Source: Flavobacteriales bacterium UBA1494
GTDB lineage: Bacteria > Bacteroidota > Bacteroidia > Flavobacteriales_E > Vicingaceae
DNA: 64,000 nucleotides
NCBI GenBank assembly: GCA_905182175.1
Contig: CAJJAT010000029.1
Location: forward strand, 1-64,000
Reading direction: 5' to 3'
Shown here: one piece after another, positions 946 to 32,444 of the stretch
Position numbering within the stretch: the first letter of the stretch is position 1
How the letters are laid out: the number at the start of each line of letters is the position of its first letter
Program-made: the position numbers and the translations under genes
The notes under the pieces: model-generated
Database searches by the model: none
What the model saw: only the letters and a program-made list of their open reading frames with translations
Told to the model about the DNA's origin: nothing

Positions 946-2724
946 CTAGAAACAATATTTATTTTCTGCTACCATTTTTTGTGCAATAGCTTGTCTATTT
1001 TCTTTCACATTAAGTGGTCCGTGCTTTGTGAAACGCTTAATTCCCATTAGCATTCCCATTTGCTCATCTCCTGTGACAAATGAATTTACAGCATCTTTTC
1101 CATGCTTGTGCATTCTATCAGCAGCATCGTATAAATACGTTTGCATCATTTTTTCCTGAAGTTCAAAATTCAAGCCCATGCTTTTCATTTTTTCAACTCT
1201 CAACAGCATTGATTCGCAGATGTATGTTTCCATCACCATGTCCGCTATGTTCATCAATACTTCTTGTTCTTTTGCCAATGATGCGGCCAATGTTTTTGCT
1301 GCAGCTCCGGCGGTTAATAAAACTGCCTTTTTGAAGTTGCCAATTACTCTTCTTTCTGCCGCGTAATCTGCAGAATCATCAAAGTCAAAATCAGGAATTT
1401 CCATTAATTGTTCCGCTACTTTCATAGCAGGCTCCAATATGTTTAATTCACCTTTCATTGCTCTTTTCAAAATAATATCAACCGTTAGCATTCGGTTAAT
1501 CTCATTTGTTCCTTCAAAAATTCTATTAATTCTTGCATCTCTGTAAGCTCTTTCCATATCTGCTTCAGCAGAATAGCCCATACCCCCATAAATCTGAACT
1601 CCTTCATCAACAACGTAGTCTAACGTTTCGGAACCGTGAACTTTTAAGAGGGCACATTCTGCTGCATACTCTCGTAAACCTTCTAGTGTTGCTTCTTGCT
1701 TGTCCATGCCAGCTGCTTCATGCGCTTCGATGGTATCGGTAATGTTTTGGCTCAATCGGTACAAGGCTGATTCAGTAGCGAAACACTTAATAGCTTGTTC
1801 AGCTAATTTAAAGCGTATAGCGCCATACTTGGATATTGATCTACCAAATTGCTCTCTCTCGTTTGCAAATTGAATAGAACGGCTTACAGCAGCTTTAGAA
1901 GCGCCTAATGCAGCGCCTGCTAACTTTGCTCTGCCAATGTTTAGAATATTTAAGGCAATTTTAAATCCTTCTTGTCTTTTGCCGAGTAAATTATCTTTTG
2001 AAATCTTTACATCGTTAAAGAAGATTTGTCTGGTGGAAGAGCCTTTAATTCCTAATTTTTTCTCTTCAGGATTCATGGTAATACCTGCCATATCTGCGGT
2101 TAATATAAATGCAGATAGATCTTTATCATCTTCGATTTTAGCAAAAACGGTTAATACATGTGCAAAACCACCGTTGGTAATCCACATTTTTTGTCCGTTA
2201 ATAATGTAGTGCTCTCCGTCTGCGGTCGGAATGGCCTTTGTTTTTCCTGAATTTGCGTCAGATCCTGAACTTGGTTCTGTTAGGCAATAACAACCTTTCC
2301 ATTCGCCACTTGCAAGTTTTGGTATAAATTCCTGCTTTTGTGCATCGGTGCCGTAATATAGTATAGGAAGTGTTCCAATTCCTGTATGGGCAGATAGCGC
2401 TACAGCAAAGGAGTAACCTGCACCCGTAACTTCTGCTGTTAGCATGGAGGTTACAAAGTTTTTCCCAAACCCGCCCAGTTCTTCTGGTACAGAAATGCCG
2501 CAAAGACCAAGTTCTCCCGCTTTTGTCAACTTACTTGCCATGAGGCCTTCTTGCATTGCGTCAATTTCCTCTAATTCGGGGTAAATTTCTGTTTCAAGAA
2601 AATCCAGGCAACTTTGAGCAATCATATTTTGCTCTTCGTCATATTGTTCAGGAATGAAAATATCTTTTGATTCGGTTTCAGTAATGAGGAACTCTCCTCC
2701 TTTAATTGTTTTTTTATCGCTCAT
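946..2724 (-). CDS. fadE: Acyl-CoA dehydrogenase, FadE-like (592 aa)
   Basis: This is an FAD-dependent dehydrogenase for the first step of fatty acid beta-oxidation, converting acyl-CoA to trans-2-enoyl-CoA. Visible motifs are the flavin/substrate signature YCLTEPSSGSDANSGKTKA, then NGQKMWITNGG, and the C-terminal signature GGMGYSAEADMERAYRDAR followed by INRIFEGTNEI, whose Glu is the expected catalytic base. At 592 residues it is longer than the 380-residue short-chain enzymes. It matches the FadE/VLCAD-like class with an extra C-terminal helical region (about residues 450-592). It is the last gene of its operon, and its ATG lies 8 bases after the thiolase stop. Length and neighbours resemble the Bacillus fadN-fadA-fadE operon. 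Confidence 0.93.
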   Translation of the reverse strand: MSDKKTIKGGEFLITETESKDIFIPEQYDEEQNMIAQSCLDFLETEIYPELEEIDAMQEGLMASKLTKAGELGLCGISVPEELGGFGKNFVTSMLTAEVTGAGYSFAVALSAHTGIGTLPILYYGTDAQKQEFIPKLASGEWKGCYCLTEPSSGSDANSGKTKAIPTADGEHYIINGQKMWITNGGFAHVLTVFAKIEDDKDLSAFILTADMAGITMNPEEKKLGIKGSSTRQIFFNDVKISKDNLLGKRQEGFKIALNILNIGRAKLAGAALGASKAAVSRSIQFANEREQFGRSISKYGAIRFKLAEQAIKCFATESALYRLSQNITDTIEAHEAAGMDKQEATLEGLREYAAECALLKVHGSETLDYVVDEGVQIYGGMGYSAEADMERAYRDARINRIFEGTNEINRMLTVDIILKRAMKGELNILEPAMKVAEQLMEIPDFDFDDSADYAAERRVIGNFKKAVLLTAGAAAKTLAASLAKEQEVLMNIADMVMETYICESMLLRVEKMKSMGLNFELQEKMMQTYLYDAADRMHKHGKDAVNSFVTGDEQMGMLMGIKRFTKHGPLNVKENRQAIAQKMVAENKYCF

Positions 2725-2732
2725 GATTTTCT

Positions 2733-3911
2733 TTAGTATAACATTTCAAATATTCCGGCAGCGCCTTGCCCAGTTCCAACGCACATAGTAACCATACCGT
2801 ATTTTTTATTTCGTCTTTTTAGTTCATTAAAAATTTGAACAGATAGTTTTGCCCCAGTGCAACCTAACGGATGACCCAAAGAAATAGCTCCGCCATTTAC
2901 GTTCAACTTTTCGGGATCTAGATTTAATTCTCTAATTACTGCTAAAGATTGCGAAGCAAATGCCTCATTTAGCTCAATTAAGTCTATATCGCTTAACTTT
3001 AAACCTGCTTGCTTTAATGCCAGTGGAATAGCTTTTACTGGTCCAATTCCCATAATACTTGGGTCAACACCTGCGGTCGCATAAGAAACCATTCTTGCAA
3101 TTGGTTTCAAATTATGTCGTTTCACCATATCTTCAGAGGCTACCATTACAAAGGCGGCACCGTCTGAAGTTTGTGAAGAGTTACCAGCTGTAATACTTCC
3201 GCCTTGTGCAAAAACAGGTCTTAGCCTAGCCAATGCTTCAACAGATGTGCCTTTTCTAGGGCCTTCATCTTGAGAAAAAGTAAAGCTTCTCGTTTTTCGT
3301 TTTCCGTTTTCATTAACATAGACTTGTTCAACTTCGATAGGTACAATGTCATCTTTAAACGTTCCATTTTCATTCGCTTTTAACGATTTTTCGTGAGACT
3401 CAAAGGCAAATTGATCTTGGTCTTCTCTGCTGATGTTGTACTTGTTCGCCACTTCCTCAGCAGTTAATCCCATGCCCCAATAATAGCTTGGGTTCTCCTT
3501 CGCAACTTTTGCATTCGGTACAATCCTCCAGCCACCCATAGCAACGGGTGACATGGTTTCAACCCCGCCTGCAATAATCAGGTTGCCCATTCCATTTTTG
3601 ATTTTAGAATCTGCAATAGCGATGGTTTCTAATCCTGAAGAGCAATAGCGATTTACTGTCATTCCTGGAACATCAATTGAATTTAGTCCCATGAGGGAAA
3701 CTAAACGACCAATGTTTAATCCTTGTTCAGCTTCAGGTGTCGCATTTCCAACAATTACATCGTCAATTTCTTGAGGGGTAATGCTCGGATTCATTTTCAT
3801 TAAATGCTGAATTACGTTTGCCGCCAAATCATCTGGTCTGGTAAATCGAAGTGAACCTCTTCCAGATTTTCCAACTGCTGTTCTGTATCCTGCTACTATG
3901 TATGTGTCCAT
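2733..3911 (-). CDS. fadA: Acetyl-CoA acyltransferase (3-ketoacyl-CoA thiolase)
   Basis: This thiolase catalyses the last beta-oxidation step, CoA-dependent cleavage of 3-ketoacyl-CoA to acetyl-CoA and a shortened acyl-CoA. It has the nucleophilic Cys90 in NRYCSSGLETI, the NEAFASQ segment, GGAISLGHPLGCTGA carrying the active-site His, and the second catalytic Cys in MCVGTGQGAAG near the C-terminus. The 392-residue length is normal for the family. It lies between the FadN-like gene (109-base gap) and the acyl-CoA dehydrogenase (8-base gap), all in one direction. The sequence alone does not fully separate FadA from biosynthetic acetyl-CoA acetyltransferases. The operon context favours degradation. 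Confidence 0.93.
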   Translation of the reverse strand: MDTYIVAGYRTAVGKSGRGSLRFTRPDDLAANVIQHLMKMNPSITPQEIDDVIVGNATPEAEQGLNIGRLVSLMGLNSIDVPGMTVNRYCSSGLETIAIADSKIKNGMGNLIIAGGVETMSPVAMGGWRIVPNAKVAKENPSYYWGMGLTAEEVANKYNISREDQDQFAFESHEKSLKANENGTFKDDIVPIEVEQVYVNENGKRKTRSFTFSQDEGPRKGTSVEALARLRPVFAQGGSITAGNSSQTSDGAAFVMVASEDMVKRHNLKPIARMVSYATAGVDPSIMGIGPVKAIPLALKQAGLKLSDIDLIELNEAFASQSLAVIRELNLDPEKLNVNGGAISLGHPLGCTGAKLSVQIFNELKRRNKKYGMVTMCVGTGQGAAGIFEMLY

Positions 3912-4020: not shown

Positions 4021-6429
4021 CTAATTCCTCAATACTTTACCTTTTGTAATCATGCTTTGTAATCGTTGAAGTGTCTTCTTTGTCATACACAATTCAACAA
4101 ATGCTTTTCGTTCTAAGTCCAACAAGTAGCGTTCTGAAACCTCTGTTATCTCAGATAAATCTCCTCCCGCTAAAACATACCCTAGTTTTTCAGATATTAA
4201 TTGATCGTGCTCTGAAATGTACTTTCCACTCTTCATGGTATTGGCTCCAACGTATACAATTCCCAATGCCTCTTGACCTAACACTTTTATATCAGTTCTT
4301 TCCATAGGTTGTGTATACCCTTTTTCGACTAATTCAAGAACCGCTTTTTTGGCTCTTGATAATTGCAATTCTCTACTGACAATCACCTCATCAATTCCTT
4401 TGCGTAAATAACCTAACTCGAAAGCTTCATGTCCACTAGTTGCAACCTGTGCTTGGCCAATGGTTAAAAAACGTTCGCGGAAAGCATTAATTCTGATGTC
4501 TCCAGGTTTTAATTCATCTGATAATCGCAGGGCAAACTCTTTTGAGCCGCCACCGCCGGGGATTACACCAACACCAAACTCAACTAAGCCCATGTATGTT
4601 TCTGCATGTGCAATTACTTTGTCAGCATGCATGGAAAGTTCGCAACCGCCACCTAGTGCCATTTGGTGTGTTGCTACAACAACTGGTACTGAGGAGTAAC
4701 GAACTCTCATCATGGTGTTTTGGAATTGCTTTATGGCGAAGTTTAATTCGTCATATTCTTGTTCCACAGCCATCATGAAAATCATTCCTACATTGGCGCC
4801 TGCAGAGAAATTCCCTCCTGTGTTATAAACGACCAATCCTTCATACTCTTTCTCGGCCAAATCAATGGCTTTGTTAATTGCAGCAACTGTTCCAGCACCA
4901 ATTGTATTCATTTTTGAGTGGAACTCAAGGTTGAGTATTCCATCTCCTAAATCAACAATAGTGGCATCTTTGTTTTTCCAAACCGTATGTTCAGCTCGTA
5001 AATTCTCTAGTATTACTAATTCTTCTGTTCCGGGAATTGCTTTGTAGCTTTTAGAAGGGATGTCGTAATATAATCGAGTTCCTTTCTCGACCTTATAGAA
5101 GCTTTCGTTTCCTGCAGCTACCATTTCTTCAACCCAAGACGCAACCGCTTTTCCGCTTTCTTTCATTTTAGTAAGTACAGTAGAAACTCCGAGTGCATCC
5201 CAGCTTTCGAATGGTCCTAATTGCCAGCCAAAACCGGCCTTTACACCATCGTCAATTCTAAACAGTTCGTCAGATATTTCAGGAATTCTAAAGGAAACAT
5301 AGCTAAATAAATCAGTAAACGTTGCTCTGTAAAAATCGCCGCCTTTGTCTTTGTGATTAAATAAAATTCTTGTTTTCTCAGCTAGGTCATCTATTTCTCT
5401 TGCTTTTCCAATGGAATCGAATTTAACTTTTTCTTGAGCTTTATATTCTAAGGTGTTTAAGTCAAGTGATAAAATTTGACTTTTACCATCATCGTCTTTA
5501 ATCTTTTTGTAAAAACCTTGTCCTGTTTTAGACCCTAGCCAGTTTTGCTCTGCCATGTGTTTTACATAGCTCGGAATTGCAAAAGCTGACTTCTTCTCGT
5601 CATTTGGGCAATTGTCTGCAACGCCGTTTGCAACATGCACTAAAGTGTCTAGTCCAACAACATCGCAAGTCCTAAAGGTAGCAGACTTTGGTCTGCCTAG
5701 AACAGGTCCTGTTAACTTGTCAACTTCTTCGACCGTTAAGCCCATTTCTTTTACCGTATGGAAAAGAGACATAATTGAGAACACTCCAATTCTGTTCGCA
5801 ATAAATGCAGGAGTATCTTTCGCTAGCACCGTTTTCTTGCCTAAATACTTTCTTCCATAATCCAGTAAAAACGCTACCAACTCAGGCTTCGTTTTCGAAC
5901 TTGGAATAATTTCGAAAAGCTCCAAATATCTTGGAGGGTTAAAAAAGTGTGTTCCTAAAAAGTTAGCCTGAAAATCTTCAGATCGACCTTCCAGCATCGA
6001 CTCAATTGGAATACCGGAAGTGTTAGAAGAAATAATTGTTCCTTCTTTTCGGTACTTCTCTACTTTTTCGAAAACTATTTTCTTAATGTCTAGTCTTTCC
6101 ACCACTACTTCAATTACCCAATCTGCACTTGCAATTTTTTCTAAATCGTCATCGAAGTTGCCCAAAGCCACTCTTTTAGCAAATGATTTGGAATAAAGGG
6201 GAGCAGGAGAGGACTTTATAGCAGCGGTAAAGGCTTCATTTACAATTCGGTTTCGAACTGCTTTATCTTCTAAGGTTAATCCTTTCGCTGTTTCTCCGTC
6301 GGTTAATTCTCTTGGAACAATGTCTAATAAAAGTACTTCCAGGCCGATGTTAGCAAAATGGCAAGCAATTCTAGAGCCCATCACTCCGGAGCCTAAAACT
6401 GCTACTTTCTTAATTCTTCGTTTACTCAT
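4021..6429 (-). CDS. fadN: 3-hydroxyacyl-CoA dehydrogenase / enoyl-CoA hydratase, FadN-like (802 aa)
   Basis: This bifunctional enzyme carries the middle steps of beta-oxidation. The N-terminus has an NAD-binding Rossmann motif (VAVLGSGVMGSRIACHFANI, residues about 9-28). 3-hydroxyacyl-CoA dehydrogenase domains fill the first half, including THFFNPPRYLELFEIIP. A crotonase domain follows in the second half, with NTGGNFSAGANVG and the oxyanion-hole region GGGCELSMHADKV and VIPGGGGSKEFALRL. Dehydrogenase-then-hydratase is the reverse of E. coli FadB and is the order found in Bacillus FadN (about 790 aa). The start is 4 bases downstream of the MarR gene, so the two are surely cotranscribed. Confidence 0.92.
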   Translation of the reverse strand: MSKRRIKKVAVLGSGVMGSRIACHFANIGLEVLLLDIVPRELTDGETAKGLTLEDKAVRNRIVNEAFTAAIKSSPAPLYSKSFAKRVALGNFDDDLEKIASADWVIEVVVERLDIKKIVFEKVEKYRKEGTIISSNTSGIPIESMLEGRSEDFQANFLGTHFFNPPRYLELFEIIPSSKTKPELVAFLLDYGRKYLGKKTVLAKDTPAFIANRIGVFSIMSLFHTVKEMGLTVEEVDKLTGPVLGRPKSATFRTCDVVGLDTLVHVANGVADNCPNDEKKSAFAIPSYVKHMAEQNWLGSKTGQGFYKKIKDDDGKSQILSLDLNTLEYKAQEKVKFDSIGKAREIDDLAEKTRILFNHKDKGGDFYRATFTDLFSYVSFRIPEISDELFRIDDGVKAGFGWQLGPFESWDALGVSTVLTKMKESGKAVASWVEEMVAAGNESFYKVEKGTRLYYDIPSKSYKAIPGTEELVILENLRAEHTVWKNKDATIVDLGDGILNLEFHSKMNTIGAGTVAAINKAIDLAEKEYEGLVVYNTGGNFSAGANVGMIFMMAVEQEYDELNFAIKQFQNTMMRVRYSSVPVVVATHQMALGGGCELSMHADKVIAHAETYMGLVEFGVGVIPGGGGSKEFALRLSDELKPGDIRINAFRERFLTIGQAQVATSGHEAFELGYLRKGIDEVIVSRELQLSRAKKAVLELVEKGYTQPMERTDIKVLGQEALGIVYVGANTMKSGKYISEHDQLISEKLGYVLAGGDLSEITEVSERYLLDLERKAFVELCMTKKTLQRLQSMITKGKVLRN

Positions 6430-6901: not shown

Positions 6902-6909
6902 CAAATATA
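6902..6909 (-). promoter_or_regulatory. Putative -7 box of the marR-fadNAE operon
   Basis: On the minus strand this reads TATATTTG, an exact match to the Bacteroidota -7 consensus TAnnTTTG, 25 bases upstream of the MarR ATG. The -33 region then falls inside the palindrome at 6922-6945. Confidence 0.6.
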
Positions 6910-6921
6910 ACAAAAAAAGTC

Positions 6922-6945
6922 ATTTACTATGCATGCATAGTAAAT
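6922..6945. promoter_or_regulatory. 24-bp perfect palindrome, probable MarR operator
   Basis: The half-site ATTTACTATGCA is followed directly by its exact reverse complement, with no mismatch over 24 bases. It lies 45 bases upstream of the MarR start and covers the -33 position of the predicted promoter, as expected for a repressor dimer site. MarR proteins usually bind such palindromes in their own promoters. That this particular protein binds here is inference. Confidence 0.7.
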
Positions 6946-6952
6946 ATAGTTG

Positions 6953-6960
6953 TATATTTG
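6953..6960 (+). promoter_or_regulatory. Possible divergent -7 box facing away from the fad operon
   Basis: The plus strand reads TATATTTG, again an exact TAnnTTTG match, on the other side of the palindrome. No protein gene follows on the plus strand before the hairpin at 7006-7033. No good TTG -33 element is visible. Confidence 0.35.
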
Positions 6961-7005
6961 TCGAACAAGAGGTAGTAGACTTGTAGATTGGTTAGTAATT
7001 GAATC

Positions 7006-7033
7006 AAAAGGGAGTTCGTAAGAGCTCCCTTTT
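7006..7033 (+). terminator. Hairpin with GTAA loop, possible terminator of a short plus-strand RNA
   Basis: The stem AAAAGGGAGTTC / GAGCTCCCTTTT (12 bp, one G-T wobble) closes a GTAA tetraloop and is followed on the plus strand by GTGCTTTT. It could also act as a third minus-strand hairpin downstream of the M16 gene. Confidence 0.45.
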
Positions 7034-7065
7034 GTGCTTTTAATACCTAACGCTTAATCCGCAAA

Positions 7066-7100
7066 AAAGCCCCAACTGAATTTATTCAGCAAGGGGCTTT
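7066..7100 (-). terminator. Second terminator downstream of the M16 protease
   Basis: The outer stem AAGCCCC / GGGGCTT holds a nested CTGAA / TTCAG stem. On the minus strand it is followed by T6. It lies beyond the terminator at 7124-7155, forming a tandem pair. Confidence 0.7.
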
Positions 7101-7123: not shown

Positions 7124-7155
7124 AAACCCCTAGCTACCAAAATAACTAGGGGTTT
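7124..7155 (-). terminator. First terminator of the M16 protease gene
   Basis: A perfect 10-bp stem AAACCCCTAG / CTAGGGGTTT, followed by T6 on the minus strand, lies 23 bases after the stop codon at 7178. Confidence 0.85.
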
Positions 7156-32104: not shown

Positions 32105-32441
32105 GTAATAAACCGTTCTATCGTGCCAATTTTTTTTGGTAAGGAAAGTCCGGACAGCATAGAGTACCATACCTTATGAAAATGAGGGTTCTGATTTTGT
32201 CGGAAACAGCTAGTGCAGCAGAAAATAAACCGCTTTAATTTATTAGAGTAAGGGTGAAAAGGTGGGGTAAGAGCCCACCGCTCCAAAGGTAACTGAGGGG
32301 GCATGGCAAACCTTATGGGCTGCAAGGTCAAATAAACCGGAACTGGAGTTACTCGCTCTTCCGGAGGGTAGACTGCTTAGATAAATGATAGAATATTCTA
32401 ATTCGTTAGAATAACAGAATCTGGCTTATAGGTTTATTTAT
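32105..32441 (+). ncRNA. rnpB: RNase P RNA (class A)
   Basis: This is the catalytic RNA that matures tRNA 5' ends. Conserved elements appear in order: GGAAAGTCCGGACA (CR-I), the AGGGTGAAAAGGTGGGGTAA and GAGCCCACCG block of P10-P12, AACTGGAGTTACTCGC, GGAGGGTAGACTGCTTAGATAAATG and ACAGAATCTGGCTTATAGG (CR-V). P1 is formed by AATAAACC (32107-32114) and GGTTTATT (32431-32438), which sets the ends to within a few bases. It follows the Smr gene in the same direction and ends just before a perfect terminator. Confidence 0.95.
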
Positions 32442-32444
32442 TAT

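Follow-up and report, generated by a model that had tools for sequence, protein, structure and literature searches.

A candidate small RNA gene facing a marR-fadNAE operon across a predicted MarR operator in the Vicingaceae

We have analyzed the marR locus in a window of 64,000 nucleotides (64 kb, the whole stretch of DNA considered here) from Flavobacteriales bacterium UBA1494, a member of the family Vicingaceae. The minus strand carries the gene for a MarR-family regulator, followed by fadN-like, fadA-like and fadE-like genes in that order. Across a palindrome upstream of marR lies a short unit that is predicted to be transcribed from the plus strand, divergently from this operon, into a non-coding RNA. 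The features of the locus are listed in Table 1. Between the RNA and the gene for an M16 peptidase there are two further hairpins (7065-7100 and 7124-7155), which on the minus strand resemble tandem terminators of the peptidase gene.

Table 1. Features of the marR locus, with positions in the window
Feature	Position	Strand	Basis or remark
fadE-like acyl-CoA dehydrogenase	946..2724	-	profile search
fadA-like thiolase	2733..3911	-	profile search
fadN-like 3-hydroxyacyl-CoA dehydrogenase / enoyl-CoA hydratase	4021..6429	-	profile search
marR, MarR-family regulator, 147 aa	6434..6877	-	PF01047, 43 bits
-7 box TATATTTG, promoter of the marR-fadNAE operon	6902..6909	-	sequence match; TAnnTTTG at the marR side in relatives
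Palindrome, putative MarR operator, flanked by two divergent promoters	6922..6945	.	core TATGCATGCATA; 24 bp, perfect
-7 box TATATTTG, predicted small RNA promoter	6953..6960	+	TAnnTTTG-type in 12 copies
Predicted non-coding RNA, ~77 nt	6965..7041	+	model R1 match 6961-7042, 100.2 bits; ends predicted
5' hairpin ACAAG/CUUGU, loop AGGUAGUAGA	6965..6984	+	98.2% of cells paired over 11 sequences
Conserved linker ATTGGTTAGTAATTGAA	6987..7003	+	the same in 11 of 12 copies; L004 has one change
Intrinsic terminator: hairpin 7005-7034 and U-rich tail	7005..7041	+	covariation, 10 of 13 pairs

The 24-bp perfect palindrome reported in a preliminary description of this DNA is real. It consists of two 12-nt arms, ATTTACTATGCA and TGCATAGTAAAT, that are 100% complementary with no spacer, and it is the only perfect palindrome of at least 20 nt in the window; none of 100 dinucleotide shuffles of the window contained a perfect palindrome of at least 24 nt. 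A MarR fold and a palindromic operator in the regulator's own promoter are the marks of a local autorepressor, and both are present. A protein search with marR gave matches in 33 of 41 genomes. Conservation of the operator was scored at 30 of the best marR matches (L001-L030) less L005, which was left out because its contig starts at the gene. The motif TATGCNNGCATA is found no more than 150 bp upstream of marR in 23 of these 29 orthologs, and near-matches could be recognised by eye in five of the other six (L017-L020, L025), so that the operator accompanies marR well beyond the family. At L026, in a genome of another family, two complete TATGCATGCATA sites lie upstream of marR, 30 bp apart. 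Within the window's own genome (G000) the 18-mer TACTATGCATGCATAGTA occurs at a single site when up to 3 of 18 mismatches are allowed. At that stringency MarR therefore has no other site there, and its direct control is probably limited to the marR-fadNAE operon and the small RNA. A wider scan of 9 genomes for TATGCNNGCATA gave 27 sites, 9 of them marR operators; all 11 that were examined among the remaining 18 are within reading frames or on a start codon.

Copies of TATATTTG face outward on the two sides of the palindrome. They had been described as mirrored, which is correct as to orientation but not as to exact spacing: the marR-side box is 24 bp from the palindrome centre and the plus-strand box 19 bp. 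This sequence occurs 4 times in the window against 4.63 expected, so that taken by itself it is no rarer than random expectation. Among the 12 copies of the RNA described below, the small RNA box is TAnnTTTG in 11 and TACTTTAG in one, and the distance to it from the operator centre is 16-19 bp in all 12. At the marR side, 10 of 12 loci have TAnnTTTG, at a distance of 15-26 bp from the operator centre; the exceptions are L014, with none in the scanned stretch, and L033, where the contig ends. Promoter boxes of the TAnnTTTG type are described as covering -12 to -5 in Flavobacterium psychrophilum (PMC9723704). By this rule the first nucleotide of the small RNA is expected at 6965, and box positions put it 1-2 nt earlier in other copies. 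The operator centre would then be at about -31 of the small RNA and about -36 of marR, over the -33 regions of both, and transcription from either promoter should therefore be blocked by a MarR dimer bound there. The geometry fits the earlier suggestion that a single dimer could repress the two transcription units.

As had been noted, the plus-strand box leads to a hairpin with a U-rich tail, with no ATG between box and hairpin. The RNA had been put at about 70 bases; a short divergent unit is borne out, and its predicted length is ~77 nt instead. The arms of the terminator hairpin are 92% complementary over 13 nt and are followed by TGCTTTT, a tail that is only moderately U-rich. The 5' hairpin hardly varies among relatives and so is a putative element; when the copy in the window is folded, the minimum-energy structure does not contain it.

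A covariance model, R1, was built from 11 copies of the RNA. Of 46 genomes of the family, 12 have a strong match, each a single one, with scores from 86.2 to 104 bits; the order-level search covered these same 46 genomes. Among 395 genomes of the class there were five strong matches, all in the family, and nine weak ones of 35-43 bits. The 11 weak matches (two in the family and nine outside it) were rejected as distant relatives: they are terminators after long reading frames and have neither box nor operator. The RNA is thus confined to part of one family, its bearers representing six genera. In the window's own genus and the five others, the unit beyond the operator consists of a TAnnTTTG-type box, a few bases, ACAAGAGGTAGTAGACTTGTTAATTGGTTAGTAATTGAA with few changes, the hairpin and the U-rich tail. 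An IUPAC pattern of the body found 11 stretches in a named genome collection, all from records with Flavobacteriales, Bacteroidia, Bacteroidetes or Vicingaceae in the title, and had no match in viral contigs.

The 39-nt body shares 97.3% identity between genera (50 pairs, minimum 89.7%); the corresponding value for marR DNA is 66.7% (44 pairs, maximum 70.8%). Columns 1-4 of the alignment are variable; the conserved part starts with column 5, corresponding to 6965 in the window, the predicted first nucleotide. Genomes differ in the sequence of the terminator stem, yet 10 of its 13 pairs have changes on both sides that keep the pairing (11 sequences); its covariation score was reached by none of 500 shuffles. 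No conserved short reading frame was found in the RNA copies. Judged from these alignments, selection is acting on the RNA body and on the terminator fold, and there is strong evidence that 6953-7041 (plus strand) is the gene of a free-standing non-coding RNA. Conservation in relatives had been set beforehand as a test of the locus, and box, body, terminator fold and operator do recur together in 12 genomes of six genera. This joint recurrence, along with the single change required on the MarR tree, supports the proposal of a short RNA divergent from marR-fadNAE.

The RNA is closely associated with marR. In 11 of 12 cases one contig carries both; in the twelfth (G004, locus L033) the contig ends just past the operator. 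The contig ends of this genome (the end of L033 and the start of L005) carry what we take to be sequencing-adapter remains, and the break adjoins the marR operator. L005 was counted as RNA-bearing on the MarR tree because its genome has L033. The tree has 30 sequences; those with the RNA cluster together (support 88/88), and a single change accounts for the distribution of the RNA. The nearest relatives that have no RNA (genus g11) retain the operator upstream of marR, so the RNA most likely joined an operator that already existed. L014 has its promoters further apart and possesses two operators, separated by 101 bp; one is 18 bp from the RNA box and the other is by marR. The position of the operator and this genome with one operator per promoter argue strongly that MarR controls transcription of the RNA.

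We propose the following explanation, which as a whole we regard as fairly probable. A MarR dimer on the 24-bp palindrome would cover the -33 regions of the two divergent promoters and repress both. An inducer, presumably acyl-CoA in view of the function of the operon, would relieve the repression, and marR-fadNAE and the ~77-nt RNA would be switched on together. The RNA, with a 5' hairpin exposing the loop AGGUAGUAGA, the conserved linker AUUGGUUAGUAAUUGAA and an intrinsic terminator, would base-pair in trans with mRNAs elsewhere, independently of Hfq, by way of the loop or the linker. A regulator with a single site would thereby adjust distant genes during growth on fatty acids. We infer the transcription, the MarR binding, the repression and the inducer; base-pairing through loop or linker is a putative step, proposed as the most likely mode of action. 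Since the operator is unique in G000, the RNA is the only route seen for MarR to reach other genes. A more specific version, which we offer tentatively and hold to be somewhat doubtful, is that the only target of this local MarR besides its own operon is an Hfq-independent RNA, added once, which turned a single-operon switch into a genome-wide fatty acid response with recognition through the exposed 10-nt loop.

A search for Hfq (PF17209) found no match in 6 genomes; of the 14 genomes that served as control, 5 gave a match. The exact complement of the loop, TCTACTACCTC, had 36 matches in the 12 genomes, of which 12 are the RNA gene itself, compared to 69 for the reversed control; among 19 of the 24 other matches that were examined, no gene could be recognised as hit in two genomes. 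For CTACTACC followed by ATG within 30 nucleotides there were 237 matches in 6 genomes against 394 in the control. Of twenty start-like cases picked by eye from the matches listed, three are plausible as start regions (L147, L149, L150); they belong to a single genome, and none is shared. The complement of the linker, TACTAACCA, followed by ATG within 28 nucleotides and judged from the matched strings, occurred 51 times in 7 genomes (once as the RNA gene itself), compared to 127 in the control. Duplex energies at gene starts reached p<=0.05, relative to single-base shuffles, for one of ten fadD, one of nine fadN and none of 11 marR genes; the sole fadD (L171) is from a genome that does not have the RNA.

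These results bear on an alternative that is possible, if unlikely, in which the RNA is real and controlled by MarR but uses its invariant loop or linker to bind or titrate a protein, or to act as a sponge for another RNA. Near-invariance of loop and linker would be expected of a protein site too, and the searches found no shared mRNA target. However, the searches are weak tests, because they required exact complements or covered few genes, and no result points to a protein partner.

In a second alternative the RNA is real but outside MarR control, the operator serving marR alone and the RNA promoter merely being across from it. The operator upstream of marR does predate the RNA, being present in relatives that have no RNA. 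We nevertheless consider this improbable, given the 16-19 bp between operator and RNA box in every one of the 12 copies and the second operator that L014 retains at its RNA promoter, 101 bp from that of marR.

The surroundings of the gene are relevant to a further reading, that the unit is the leader or attenuator of a downstream gene, or a bidirectional terminator with antisense noise that limits read-through into marR from the gene next to it. The marR side of the locus is constant while the gene beyond the RNA changes: it is a convergent M16 peptidase gene in g1, a convergent FadD gene in g9 and g15, and differing same-strand frames in g3 and g8, and in g6 the contig ends. At L007, L008 and L011 the convergent FadD gene has its end 87-91 bp from the core, and the hairpin may therefore serve to terminate the FadD transcript as well. 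A leader is nonetheless hard to reconcile with a downstream gene that is not the same in all genera and that in g1, g9 and g15 is convergent, and a simple terminator or antisense region would not account for a 39-nt body that is 97% identical between genera; we judge this reading more improbable still. Lastly, a tiny peptide gene was ruled out as highly improbable: a TTG-started frame is found at the same place in all copies because its start lies in the conserved body, but this frame runs into the variable terminator and differs in length and sequence, there is no ATG, and the double changes in the stem preserve pairing rather than codons.

In a search of the window with Rfam 15 at gathering scores only RNase P reached the threshold (a class A bacterial RNase P RNA at 32105-32444, plus strand, 220.5 bits), and the small RNA matches no family. 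Identity with BTnc231 was rejected, with 22.2 bits against a gathering score of 80.4, and searches with two homologs did not list this family at E values of up to 2. No published description of the RNA was found in the literature, mainly open-access, that was searched. Absent from Rfam 15 and from the reports found, it is therefore treated as a new RNA family, though its kind is known: the layout of a divergent small RNA beside its own regulator occurs in SgrS-SgrR and GcvB-GcvA. As in those systems, the RNA described here has, from its sequence, its own promoter directed away from the regulator gene and an intrinsic terminator. It has no reading frame that would explain its conservation, a feature to which SgrS is an exception. 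Unlike the hosts of Hfq-dependent small RNAs, its host has no Hfq match.

Three described RNAs are comparable in part. Bns1 of Neisseria is transcribed divergently to an operon that includes regulators of the GntR and DeoR families (PMC4423775), and like it the RNA here would be a free-standing small RNA transcribed away from a local regulator gene. It differs in the MarR-family regulator, the one shared palindrome, the fatty acid degradation operon and the lack of a detected Hfq; the comparison implies no relation in sequence. FarS of Vibrio cholerae, according to a review (PMC9438474), is cut from the 3' end of the fabB mRNA by RNase E and acts with Hfq on fadE, under FadR. It is likewise a small RNA tied to a regulator of fatty acid metabolism, whereas the RNA here has its own predicted promoter and no target was found. 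Rfp18 of F. psychrophilum affects metalloprotease mRNAs and, with the other Rfp RNAs, is a free-standing small RNA of Flavobacteriales; the TAnnTTTG promoter box is in use in that species (PMC9723704). As far as the available text of that report goes, and comparing by description rather than by sequence, the link to MarR and fatty acid degradation is seen only here. What is unusual is that a shared MarR operator and fatty acid degradation are combined with a lack of Hfq.

For this small RNA, sequence can thus be read to name a controller, a promoter and a likely signal, in a lineage in which Hfq was not found, and the use of small RNAs by such bacteria becomes a testable question. The presence of the operator in relatives that have no RNA suggests that a local repressor may gain distant reach when a small RNA is acquired at the side of the operator that had been free.

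The position of fadD also varies among these genomes. It ends directly upstream of marR in g9, g11 and g15 and is nearby upstream in g3 and g8 (L007, L008, L010, L011, L012), so fadD-marR-fad may be the older gene order. In g1 fadD is elsewhere, and the M16 peptidase gene takes its place beside the marR locus. In several genera (L163-L171, L173) the start of fadD is immediately preceded by a similar A/T-rich block (such as TTTTTAGTTTTATATTTACT), perhaps its promoter or a leader.
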